A stretch of DNA of 64,000 nucleotides, taken from NCBI RefSeq assembly GCF_018141545.1, contig NZ_CP064356.1, forward strand, positions 2,927,001-2,991,000, in the 5' to 3' direction. Positions 6,701 to 45,672 of this stretch are shown piece after piece. The position numbers were made by a program, and so were the translations under genes. The notes beneath the pieces were generated by a model. That model was not told the DNA's origin, did not search any database, and saw only the letters and a program-made list of their open reading frames with translations. Numbering within the stretch: position 1 is the stretch's first letter; the number at the start of each line of letters is the position of its first letter. Source of the stretch: Miltoncostaea oceani. Lineage in GTDB: Bacteria > Actinomycetota > Thermoleophilia > Miltoncostaeales > Miltoncostaeaceae.

Positions 6701-8078
6701 CGGCCAGAAGCTCATCGACGAGGGCATCGCGACGCGCGAGCAGGTCGACGCGATGATCGCGACCGCCGAGCGGCGGATGCGCGAGGCGCACGAGGCCGTC
6801 ACGAGCCGCGGCGAGCTCGGCACCCAGGGCAACGCGGAGAACGGCCGGACCGGCGTCCGCAAGACCCAGCCGCTCGCCACCGCCGTCGCCGAGGAGACCC
6901 TGCGGAGCCTCAACGAGCAGCTGCTCGCGGTCCCCGACGGCTTCACGATCCACCCGAAGCTGCGCCCCCAGCTCGAGCGCCGCCGCGAGGCCCTGGAGAC
7001 CGACGAGGCCGCCATCACGTGGGGCCACGCCGAGGCGCTCGCCTTCGCGTCGCTCCTCACCGAGGGCGTCCCCGTCCGCCTCACCGGCCAGGACTCCGCG
7101 CGCGGCACGTTCAGCCAGCGGCACCTGGAGCTGCACGACGTCGGCGAGGGCGAGACCTGGACCCCGCACACCGGGCGCGTCCACACGCCGCTCGCCAACC
7201 TGCTGCGGGCGTCCGCGTCGCTGGAGCTGCACAACAGCCCCCTCTCCGAGGCGGCCGCGGTCGGCTTCGAGTACGGGTACAGCACCCACGCGCCCGAGAC
7301 GCTGGTCCTCTGGGAGGCCCAGTACGGCGACTTCGCTAACGGCGCCCAGATCATGATCGACCAGTTCCTCGTCTCCGGCCGCGCCAAGTGGGGCGAGACG
7401 TCGCGCCTGACGCTGCTGCTGCCCCACGGGTACGAGGGCAACGGCCCCGAGCACTCCTCCGCGCGCATCGAGCGCTTCCTGCAGGCGGCGGCCGAGGACA
7501 ACATCCGCGTCGCCAACTGCAGCACGGCCGCGAACTACTTCCACCTGCTGCGCAAGCAGGCGCTGACCGACCACCAGCGGCCGCTCATCATCTTCACGCC
7601 GAAGAGCCTGCTGCGGGCCAAGAGCGCCTCGTCGCGCCTCAGCGACCTGTCCGACGGCGCGTTCCACCCCGTCTTCGACGACGCCCGCACCGAGGGGCGC
7701 CGCGACCAGGTCACCCGCCTGATCCTCTGCTCCGGCAAGGTCTTCCACGAGCTCGACGGCCACGAGGACCGCGACGCGCACCCGGAGCTCGCGATCGGCC
7801 GGGTCGAGCTGCTGTTCCCGTTCCCCGACGAGCAGATCACCGAGCTCGTCGCCTCCTACCCGGGCCTCACCACGGTGACCTGGGTCCAGGAGGAGCCGCG
7901 CAACATGGGCGCCTGGGAGTTCGCGCGCCTCCAGCTCGAGCGCGTCTTGCCCGAGGGCGTAACCTTGGAGTACGTCGGCAGAGCCCGGCGCGCGAGCACC
8001 AGCGAGGGGTACCCGCAGGCCCACCAGGCCGAGCAGGAGCGACTCCTCCGTGCCGCACTGAATCCAGACCAGGAGTAA
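3729..8078 (+). CDS. kgd: 2-oxoglutarate dehydrogenase superfusion: two lipoyl domains, PSBD, E2 acyltransferase and E1
   Basis: Oxidative decarboxylation of 2-oxoglutarate to succinyl-CoA in the TCA cycle. 1449 residues in order: lipoyl domain 1 (about 8-85, lipoyl Lys49 in TTDKVDVE), Ala/Pro linker, lipoyl domain 2 (about 129-205, Lys169 in STDKVDLE), linker, peripheral-subunit-binding domain (240-277, ISPVARRLAIEHGID), E2 catalytic domain (about 315-535, DHRVIQG at 512-518), then E1 (about 575-1449) with GMAHRGRLAF and the ThDP motif GDAAFTGQG...ANNQIGFTT. Mycobacterial Kgd and corynebacterial OdhA fuse E2 and E1 but lack lipoyl domains and PSBD and run about 1220-1260 residues; here the complete E2 is present. 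GTG 3729 starts the chain directly before lipoyl domain 1. E3 (lpdA) follows six bases after the stop codon. Confidence 0.95.
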   Translation: MSTTSSQTIQVLLPELGESVTEGIVVEWRVAEGDVVETGQPLLDVTTDKVDVEVPAPAAGRITRIVAAPGETVEVGALLAELAAGDTATDGSGNGAPAPPAPAANAAPAGDSAPAAAPAAPADDGPATMVPIVLPDMESVTEGVVVEWRVAVGETVAAEQIVVEVSTDKVDLEVPAPAAGRLESIAIPAGETFTVGQPLGEIAAGASGGATPAPTAGEPAPAVDAGPAPDGSAAAGTEWPQISPVARRLAIEHGIDPATVTGSGPGGMVRKADVVEAASRPAAAAAPAPSAAPAVAGEEAVILRGPAAALAGYMDESLKIPTATSFRTLSVATLDAQRRQINADLAAAGQKGKLSFTHLIAWAIVRAVRSQPVMGTGFDVVDGKPHKLVREAVNLGLAVDVERKDGSRSLLVPVVRDAASGGFGAFRAAFDDLVGRTRAGQVKPDELRGATVTLTNPGGIGTIASVPRLMPGQGTIVATGSIAYPPGLASVRPETLKDLGVEKVMTVTSTYDHRVIQGAESGAFLAEIDHLLSGDDGFYEDVRAGLGLGAAAPIAVAAPAPVAASATAGAPVVTDDELLAGVAAAMSVVKAHRSHGHLAARLDPLGSEPPGDPALSTENVGLSPEVMARIPASLLRVKVPGDSFAAALPHLRAAYCGNIAYEIEHISDHQKRLWLRGVIESGRLRAPLSAERRIAALERLVQVDAFERFLRRTYLGQKTFSIEGVDALVTITDQVIELGADDGASQVVLGMAHRGRLAFITHVVGRPPESILAEFEGHMAFESGEEDMRETAGDVKYHLGAEGTYVSRAGRTVTVRLAANPSHLEQVNAVAEGHTRAIQTQRSGRDPVHDPSSAVPVLIHGDAAFTGQGVVAETLNLQALKGYSTGGTVHIIANNQIGFTTDPYDSRSTYHVSDLARGFDIPVIHVNADDVDACISAAQIAAAYRSRYQRDVLINLIGYRRLGHNELDEPAYTQPVMSRTIKAHPPVSKIYGQKLIDEGIATREQVDAMIATAERRMREAHEAVTSRGELGTQGNAENGRTGVRKTQPLATAVAEETLRSLNEQLLAVPDGFTIHPKLRPQLERRREALETDEAAITWGHAEALAFASLLTEGVPVRLTGQDSARGTFSQRHLELHDVGEGETWTPHTGRVHTPLANLLRASASLELHNSPLSEAAAVGFEYGYSTHAPETLVLWEAQYGDFANGAQIMIDQFLVSGRAKWGETSRLTLLLPHGYEGNGPEHSSARIERFLQAAAEDNIRVANCSTAANYFHLLRKQALTDHQRPLIIFTPKSLLRAKSASSRLSDLSDGAFHPVFDDARTEGRRDQVTRLILCSGKVFHELDGHEDRDAHPELAIGRVELLFPFPDEQITELVASYPGLTTVTWVQEEPRNMGAWEFARLQLERVLPEGVTLEYVGRARRASTSEGYPQAHQAEQERLLRAALNPDQE

Positions 8079-42305: not shown

Positions 42306-42342
42306 GTCACGCCGGGTCACCGGACGGTCACCGCGCCGTAAC
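42306..42342 (+). promoter_or_regulatory. four GTCAC/GTAAC direct repeats after the flippase gene
   Basis: GTCAC at 42306, 42316 and 42327 and GTAAC at 42338 (periods 10, 11, 11). OmpR/PhoP/GlnR-type spacing, but no gene starts downstream on plus for 750 bases. Confidence 0.35.
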
Positions 42343-43090: not shown

Positions 43091-43501
43091 ATGACCACCA
43101 CGCCGAGCGGCGACGCGCGCCTCGACCGGGGCAGGGAGCTGGCGGAGCAGCACCTCGGGGAGGGCGTCATCGAGCGGTGGCGGGGGGTCTCCCCCGCCCT
43201 CGAGGAGCTGACGTCGGCGTTCGGGTTCGCCGACCTGTGGGGGCGTCCCGGCCTGTCGCGCCGCGACCGCTCCATCGTGGCGATGGCCATCACCGCGACC
43301 CTGCGCGCCGAGCCCCAGCTCGGCTGGCACGTGCGCGGCGCCCTCGGGGCGGGCGTGACCCCGGACGAGGTGCGCGAGGTGCTGATCGCGGTGTCCGGCC
43401 TGGCCGGCTTCCCGGCGGCGTGGACGGCGCTGGAGGTGGCCGAGCCGATCCTCGCCGAGCACGCCGCGGGCTCCGCCGACGGCGGGGGCGACGCCGGCTG
43501 A
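43091..43501 (+). CDS. carboxymuconolactone decarboxylase family protein
   Basis: 136-residue CMD/PcaC-fold protein: GFADLWGRPGLSRRDRSIVAMAITATLRAEPQLGWHVRGALGAG...EVREVLIAVSGLAGFPAAW. The peroxidase CxxC of AhpD is absent, so it is PcaC-like, possibly acting on aromatic-ring cleavage products. ATG 43091 follows AGGGGGG. Probably the target of the divergent MarR regulator. Confidence 0.88.
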   Translation: MTTTPSGDARLDRGRELAEQHLGEGVIERWRGVSPALEELTSAFGFADLWGRPGLSRRDRSIVAMAITATLRAEPQLGWHVRGALGAGVTPDEVREVLIAVSGLAGFPAAWTALEVAEPILAEHAAGSADGGGDAG

Positions 43502-43535: not shown

Positions 43536-43562
43536 TTCACCGGGGTTTCACAGGATCGTCAC
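43536..43562 (+). promoter_or_regulatory. three PHO-box-like direct repeats before the response regulator
   Basis: TTCAC at 43536, TTCAC at 43547, GTCAC at 43558, exact period 11, about 60-85 bases before ATG 43621. Fits autoregulation by an OmpR-type regulator. Confidence 0.5.
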
Positions 43563-43620
43563 GGAGGGCGCGCGAACCTTCGGCGGGGCGTGACCACTCC
43601 CCCGTCCGGAGGGACGTGCG

Positions 43621-44424
43621 ATGAGGATCCTGATCGTCGAGGACGACGAGAGCACCGCCGAGGCCATGGCGTTCCACCTGCGCACGGCCGGCCTGGAGCC
43701 GACCGTGGTCGGCGACGGCCTCGCGGGCCTGCGGGCGCTGCGGACGGCGACGCCGGACGTGGTGGTGCTCGACCTGATGCTGCCGGGCGCCGACGGGTGG
43801 CACGTCATCCGCCAGGCGCGGGAGTGGGCGCCGCGCCTGCCGATCATCGTGGTGACGGCGCGGACGAACGAGCACGACCGCGTGGAGGTGCTCGCCCTCG
43901 GCGCCGACGACGTGATGGGCAAGCCGTTCTCGATGCGGGAGCTGCTGGCGCGGATCACCGCGGCGCTGCGGCGGACGGCGGTCGAGAACGCCCGCTCGGA
44001 GCGCCTGCCGGTGCAGGAGGGCGAGCTCACCGTCGACCCGTCGCGGATGTCGGTCATCGTGGCCGGGAGACCCGCCGACCTGACGCCGCTCGAGTTCAAG
44101 CTGCTGATGACGCTGGTGGAGGAGCGCGAGCGGGCGCTGTCGCGCGACGAGATCTTCCGGCGGGTGTGGGGGGCGGAGCGCGCCCACGGCGACCGCTCGG
44201 TCGACGTCCTGGTGCGGCGCCTGCGCCGGAAGGTCGACGAGGTCGGCGGCGCCTACACGTACATCCAGACCCTCCACGGGGTCGGCTACCGCTTCCTCAC
44301 GACCCCCCGCCGCCTCCCCGTGGCCGTCCCGGCGGCGCTCCCCGGGCCGGCGCCGGATCCCGCCGGCCTGCTCAGGCCGAGTCGCGGAGCGCCTGTGCCT
44401 CCGGCAGCGCCTCGAGCTTCTTGA
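43621..44424 (+). CDS. OmpR-family response regulator, orphan
   Basis: 267-residue two-component regulator. Receiver domain 1-120 with acidic pocket EDDE, phospho-acceptor Asp51 in [10 protein letters not shown], Thr in VVTAR and Lys in MGKPFS; winged-helix DNA-binding domain about 130-228 ([34 protein letters not shown]). A Pro/Ala-rich tail of about 40 residues extends over the end of the convergent rpoD gene. No histidine kinase is adjacent. GGAGGG precedes the ATG. The 11-base direct repeats upstream suggest PhoP/RegX3-like autoregulation. Confidence 0.92.
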
Positions 44425-45475
44425 GCGTGTTGTTCTCGATCTGACGGATCCGCTCGCGGGTCACGCCGAACGCGCGGCCGACCTCCTCGAGGGTGCGCGG
44501 CTGCTCGCCCAGGAGGCCGAACCGCAGCTCGATGACCTTGCGCTCCCGGTCGGGGAGGGCGTCGAGGGCGCGGAGGATGTCGGTCCGGCGCAGGTTGACG
44601 GACGCCTCGTCGAACGGCGACGCCGCCTGCTCGTCCTCGACGAAGTCCCCGAGCTCCGACTCCTCCTCCTCGCCGATCGGCTTCTCCAGGCTGACCGGCT
44701 GCTGCGCCATCCGGAGGATGTCGCGGACCTCCTCCACGCTCATGCGGAGTTCCTCGGCGATCTCCTCCGGCCGGGGCTCGCGTCCGAGCCGCTGGACCAT
44801 CTGCCGCTCGAGGTGGACGACCTTGTTGAGCTTCTCGACCATGTGCACGGGGATGCGGATGGTGCGGGCCTTATCGGCGATCGCGCGCGTCACGGCCTGG
44901 CGGATCCACCACGTGGCGTACGTCGAGAACTTGAAGCCGCGGCGGTAGTCGAACTTCTCGACGGCGCGGATCAGGCCGAGGCTCCCCTCCTGGATGAGGT
45001 CGAGGAAGGAGAGGCCACGGCCGAGGTAGCCCTTCGCGATGCTCACCACGAGGCGCAGGTTGGCCTCGACCATCGCCGTCTTCGCGGTCATGTCGCCCCG
45101 CTCGATGCGCTTCGCGAGCGCGACCTCCTGCTTGGCGGTCAGCAGCGGGACGCGGCCGATCTCGCGCAGGTAGAGGCGCAGGCTGTCGAGGCTGGGCTCG
45201 ACGGTGAGGTCGAGCTCGGGCGGGCGCTCGGTCTGCGTGGCGGACGCCTTCGCGATCACCTCGCCGTCGGCGTCCAGCACCTCGACGCCGATCTCCACGA
45301 GATGCGAGTAGAAGTCCTCGATCTGCTCCTTGGTGACGTCCGCGTCCTGGAGCGCCGCGACGATCTCGTCGTAGGTGAGGAACCCCTTCTCCCTGCCGTC
45401 CGAGGCGAGCGCGCGCATCTCCTCGACGTCCGGCACGGCGATCTCGACGGCGCTGCGGGCGGGGGCGTGCGACAT
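44372..45475 (-). CDS. rpoD: primary-type RNA polymerase sigma factor
   Basis: 367-residue group 1 (or close group 2) sigma-70. Region 1.1-like N-terminus ([29 protein letters not shown]), region 1.2 [15 protein letters not shown], region 2 with [53 protein letters not shown], region 3, and region 4 [29 protein letters not shown]. Presence of region 1.1 and full length favour the housekeeping factor. ATG 45475 has GGAAGGA seven bases upstream. Its 3' end overlaps the response regulator by 53 bases in opposite orientation. Confidence 0.93.
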
Positions 45476-45518
45476 CCGGCGGTCCTTCCTCGAGCGGGGA
45501 CGGACGGGAGGCTCCCCG

Positions 45519-45524
45519 ATCATA
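45519..45524 (-). promoter_or_regulatory. -10 box for rpoD
   Basis: TATGAT on the minus strand, 43 bases before the rpoD ATG. Confidence 0.45.
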
Positions 45525-45672
45525 CCCGGACGCCAGGCGGGCCCACCCTCCACGGGTCCGTCACAATCCTGCACACTCGGGACGAAATCGTGCGACCGGG
45601 GCCGCGACGAAATGCGGCGCGTCCCCGCCGCCCGGCCCCCCGAACCGGTGACCGACGAGAGCGAGTGACGGC

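Follow-up and report, generated by a model that had tools for sequence, protein, structure and literature searches.

What do the short repeats preceding the gene of an orphan response regulator in Miltoncostaea oceani represent, and do they place this regulator in the control of phosphate uptake? In the window, that is, the whole stretch of 64,000 nucleotides analysed here, the array TTCACCGGGGTTTCACAGGATCGTCAC was read directly from the sequence at positions 43536-43562. Three units of 11 bp follow each other on the plus strand: unit 1 (43536-43546) with the core TTCAC at 43536-43540, unit 2 (43547-43557) with the core TTCAC at 43547-43551, and unit 3 (43558-43568) with the core GTCAC at 43558-43562, each of which is kept in all 12 orthologue promoters read. 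The original prediction described exact 11-base direct repeats. The period is indeed exactly 11 across the three units, yet identity does not extend over 11 bases: the 5-base cores alone repeat, TCAC is common to all three of them, and the six linker bases vary between units. According to PMC4415409, a PHO box is defined as two 11-nt direct repeats, with GTTCACC in Streptomyces coelicolor, and the array thus contains at least the two direct repeat units at an 11-bp period that such a box requires. It lies 58 nt ahead of the regulator's ATG. A search for the exact triple pattern found a single instance in the window and none in 100 dinucleotide shuffles.

The gene behind the array (43621-44424, plus strand) encodes an OmpR/PhoB-type response regulator of 267 aa, in which a receiver domain with a phospho-acceptor site (PF00072) is combined with an OmpR-type winged helix (PF00486), as in PhoB and PhoP. 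The best NCBIfam model is PhoB (TIGR02154), whose 189 bits fall below the equivalog cut-off of 296.2, and the recognition helix resembles that of E. coli PhoB (DRTVDVHIRRLRKA). Directly upstream lies a CMD-family (carboxymuconolactone-decarboxylase) gene (43091-43501, plus strand), on the side that a divergent pst operon takes in most decidable relatives. Downstream, a convergent primary-sigma-like gene of the RpoD type (44372-45574, minus strand) overlaps the 3' end of the regulator gene and is kept as a neighbour in 10/12 relative loci aligned. Together with a MarR-family gene, likewise upstream, these neighbours include no kinase, so that the regulator had rightly been called an orphan, and the adjacent SenX3-type kinase expected of a RegX3 is absent next to its gene. 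While the best-scoring solved structure is RegX3 (2oqr, 153.6 bits), our tree joins RegX3 to MtrA (95/88) and leaves it out of the clan of 36 rows (100/99) to which the window regulator belongs. RegX3 orthology is thus not supported, an exclusion that is not firm given the long branches and unsettled bootstrap of this tree.

If the array serves phosphate control, the same motif should stand before pst genes elsewhere in this genome. Across all 4,542,116 bases, the pattern KTCAC-N6-KTCAC-N6-KTCAC matched three times in two places, and the reversed control pattern gave no match. The second place, upstream of pstS, accounts for two overlapping matches and comprises four consecutive units (C1:3440558-3440595, minus strand), located ∼96 nt ahead of the ATG of a PstS-type gene that is followed by PstC, PstA and PstB genes on the same strand. 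The genome scan proposed with the original prediction hence turned up the motif before pstSCAB. Among the other genes named there, neither phoA nor glpQ was recognised behind the few box sites detected in this genome.

To what extent the array is conserved was addressed by a search for regulator homologues in 41 genomes. Thirteen sequences, 58-100% identical and including the window regulator, form a single clade (100/100), referred to as group A; 12 of their promoters are readable, the window's included, whereas the thirteenth (L022) is truncated by a contig end. Absence of the motif upstream of orthologues had been named beforehand as evidence against the prediction, and the triple box was present in every readable group A promoter, 11 times at 15/15 core positions and once at 14/15, with the proviso that all rows come from related genomes and the counts are not independent. 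Since linkers and surroundings differ widely among these promoters, its conservation reflects constraint and goes beyond mere relatedness. A chance origin of the repeat, which we count as negligible, is refuted by this conservation, as it also is at odds with the empty shuffles. In contrast to group A, none of 18 scored promoters of the paralogous group B exceeded 10/15, and in a third group, termed C, five members reached 11-13/15. When named genomes were scanned for close relatives, only distant regulators came up. Sequence comparison supports the repeats as an operator of the PHO-box type, whose three 11-bp units lie in the promoter of the gene for their own putative regulator. In its sequence and context features it would be a further instance of a known operator type, with binding as a prediction.

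Over 25 genomes, the exact triple pattern matched 22 times, at 18 sites in all, whereas its reversed control matched once. Seven of these sites precede group A regulators, ten precede pstS (in G000, twice in G002, and in G003, G005, G007, G014, G026, G029 and G031) and one (in G032) precedes nothing recognised. This distribution bears on the idea that the array is the site of another OmpR-family regulator, e.g. an MtrA-like one, and unrelated to phosphate. The MtrA model scores nearly as high as PhoB for the window regulator (187.8 vs 189 bits, both below cut-off), and PMC6988585 describes overlapping sites of MtrA, GlnR and PhoP in Streptomyces. With 17/18 triple-box sites standing before a group A regulator or pstS, however, we regard such a site as very improbable.

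At the pstS genes, the box reached at least 13/15 in 19 of the best 25 promoters out of 39 pstS search rows and stayed below this value in the other six. Promoters of a second pstS type attained at least 13/15 in one case out of eight. Despite a group A regulator in the same genome, the best pstS hit lacked the full box in G004 (9/15), G008 (10/15), G012 (10/15) and G013 (12/15). On the other hand, a box of 13-15/15 was seen before pstS in G005, G007, G014, G016 and G020, where no group A regulator was found; some assemblies of this kind are 67-80% complete, while G007 and G014 exceed 90%. The box is thus not dependent on the window regulator alone. This could mean that it is read mainly by a group B paralogue, encoded in the own genome at C1:180018-180704, or by both proteins, and that the window regulator would be a target of group B instead of, or besides, its own target. 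The paralogue is the nearest one (47%), its recognition helix (DRSVDVFVRKVRQK) is nearly the same as that of the window regulator, and the pho cluster of G029 contains a member close to group B. Yet not a single group B promoter among the 18 scored carries the box (none reaches 11/15), the own-genome paralogue adjoins a Ser/Thr-type kinase-like gene and not pst, and it is group A, not B, that neighbours pst operons in the family. All in all, reading by group B is the chief rival but seems unlikely to us, and we favour the window regulator as the protein acting on the box.

Gene neighbourhoods lend the phosphate reading support of their own. The regulator gene is divergent from a pst operon in 8/11 decidable cases (G002, G006, G012, G013, G017, G018, G023 and G024; in G009 and G004, left out of this count, the contig end is too close), and the operon in question is of the second type. 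Such an operon is missing at the regulator in the own genome (G000), in G003 and in G008, and neither G000 nor G003 yielded a copy of the second-type PstS. Besides, distant clan members sit in pst/phoU clusters of G026, G029 and G031, which belong to other families of the class. The G029 cluster includes a PhoR-type kinase, whose best match in the window's genome, C1:803895-805001, extends at 42% over nearly the full length and is far ahead of all others. The corresponding candidate, C1:803778-805022, is of the PnpS/PhoR type, albeit below curated cut-offs, and no response regulator was among the genes listed around it. In the genome of M. oceani, then, the regulator is unlinked to pst, as is the clearest PhoR-type kinase, and two PhoU genes lie elsewhere. 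The genome thus probably holds a complete yet scattered phosphate circuit.

Taken together, we put the probability at roughly 0.78 that the operator serves a phosphate-responsive circuit in which the regulator acts on its own promoter and on pstSCAB by recruiting RNA polymerase; binding, kinase pairing, the phosphate signal and activation are the steps that we infer. Under this reading, a PhoR-type kinase from another locus of the genome, with C1:803778-805022 as the candidate, would sense phosphate shortage and phosphorylate the window regulator. The latter may then bind the 11-bp units head to tail, both before its own gene, as feedback, and before pstSCAB, for high-affinity phosphate uptake. 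As the units would share one helix face and be spaced from the -10 element in steps of 11 bp, the bound regulator could recruit RNA polymerase. Of what the original prediction had proposed, the PHO-box grammar is borne out by cores at an 11-bp period that are absent from shuffles and recur before pstSCAB and in orthologues. Autoregulation, still a prediction, gains support from the box kept at the own-gene promoter in all 12 readable orthologues. The PhoP/RegX3-like role is supported as far as phosphate is concerned, given the box before pstSCAB and the frequent divergence from pst operons, and falls short in the strict sense of RegX3 orthology, which the tree does not support.

The geometry of the promoters speaks to how the regulator might act. 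A TANNNT element starts +21/22 or +32/33 nt past the last core in 25 of the 31 box promoters considered (the 12 of group A plus the 19 of pstS that score 13/15 or more), and over positions 0-55 the sole others are two at +7. Shuffles gave a mean of 1.10 and a largest value of 6 in 5000, to be read in the light of positions that were picked after viewing the alignment. The L161 pstS promoter (13/15, no TANNNT) was left out, and its inclusion would give 25/32. Four-unit pstS boxes have TANNNT at 21/22 and three-unit boxes mostly at 32/33, two group A promoters having it at 21. Such 11-bp steps fit the expectation for an activator that touches RNA polymerase. In all ten group A promoters with TANNNT, an in-frame ATG follows 7-11 nt behind this element, so that the regulator mRNAs of these ten are probably leaderless.

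The window and G003 promoters differ in that neither has a TANNNT in register (+21/22 or +32/33); both show GANNCT at +11 and a Shine-Dalgarno-like sequence. In the window, the putative -10 element would be GAACCT (43574-43579, plus strand), 11 nt past the last core, with GAGTCT at equal distance in G003; this assignment is a weak guess. GGAGGG (43608-43613, plus strand) is a likely Shine-Dalgarno sequence. Lacking an in-register TANNNT, the window promoter is of uncertain strength and sign of regulation. The regulator might accordingly repress its own gene, or activate and then repress it. For E. coli phoB, PMC6194859 reports an autoregulated promoter under positive and negative control, in which positive feedback is joined by auto-repression via an extra half-site beside the PHO box, and the three units of the window box with an altered promoter downstream could accommodate something similar. 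In 10/12 orthologue promoters, however, the box stands upstream of the -10 element at fixed 11-bp steps, a placement typical of activation, and we consider negative or mixed feedback improbable.

Returning to activation as the preferred sign, we tentatively propose a rule for the phosphate operator of this family, at somewhat less than even odds. The -10 element would stand a multiple of 11 bp past the last unit: 22 bp where the box has four units, 33 bp where it has three, and, in the window and G003, perhaps 11 bp. Units or turns of DNA could then be gained or lost with the activator kept on the same face. At the same time, the regulator mRNA would be leaderless in most relatives and would have become Shine-Dalgarno-led in this lineage when, following loss of the neighbouring pst operon, the -10 element shifted towards the box by two turns.

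In E. coli phoA, the -10 element follows a single turn after the last core; at 21/22 or 32/33 nt, the elements of the relatives lie further away. Tandem 11-bp units, a similar recognition helix and predicted autoregulation are otherwise shared with E. coli PhoB and its Pho box, whereas the core differs (TTCAC/GTCAC here vs CTGTCAT). PhoB sites are described as overlapping the -35 region (PMC3348028), and the regular 11-bp spacing of operator and -10 element would offer natural variants for how far from this region a PhoB-type activator can work. The PHO box of Streptomyces PhoP is alike in its 11-bp direct repeats with a GTTCAC-type core and in its position before pstSCAB and the regulator's own gene, phoRP in that genus (PMC4415409, PMC6988585). 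Unlike Streptomyces PhoP, the regulator here is an orphan, unlinked to a kinase and, in this genome, to pst; there are three units at the regulator and four at pstS, and the likeness concerns the box. Mycobacterium RegX3, of the SenX3-RegX3 pair, has a known role in phosphate control (PMC4415409) and scores best among solved structures, but besides its place in the tree it differs in a helix K where the window regulator has R. A precedent for an orphan response regulator in phosphate control is PhoP4 (PMC4415409). We found no publication on a PHO box in Thermoleophilia, and among the titles listed by wider literature searches none concerned the group. An experimentally uncharacterised lineage would gain a concrete phosphate-control circuit, in which an operator is matched with an orphan regulator, with a kinase candidate that is likewise an orphan, and with pstSCAB as the first target operon.

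Several further sites were noted. With one mismatch allowed, the genome gave three additional triple matches against one for the control. Those at C1:2167414 and C1:2969316 were taken as chance; the latter is a repeat at window positions 42316-42342 (GTCACCGGACGGTCACCGCGCCGTAAC) without a same-strand gene start closely downstream. The third (C1:3156681) belongs to a stretch at C1:3156655-3156707 (L222) with GACAC/GTCAC/GTCAC at period 11 and TAGTCT at +20; the gene behind it encodes an M23 peptidase that also has a peptidoglycan-binding domain, and an Rfam search of L222 gave no match. Elsewhere, two ORFs resembling insertion-sequence transposases by eye (L042:9963-11852) lie between the pst operon and the aconitase-like gene next to it. 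A two-unit box followed by TANNNT matched 31 times over 25 genomes (control 7), and for most of the matches outside pst and regulator promoters no explanation was found. Two genera of another family have near-identical stretches of the form TCAC-N6-TTCAC...ATCGTAGCAT, at L238:1501 (G030) and L239:1501 (G025), with no gene recognised behind them. In the own genome, the two-unit pattern with TANNNT was found in three places (control 0). One of them, C1:3312891-3312934 (L223:1501), combines two full units with TAGGAT at +23, which is followed 8 nt later by an in-frame GTG. The gene that starts there encodes a phosphodiester glycosidase (PF09992) and might also belong to the phosphate regulon. Another gene for a phosphodiester glycosidase (L190:4992-6803) is divergent from the candidate PhoR-type kinase gene (6779-8023 of this locus).
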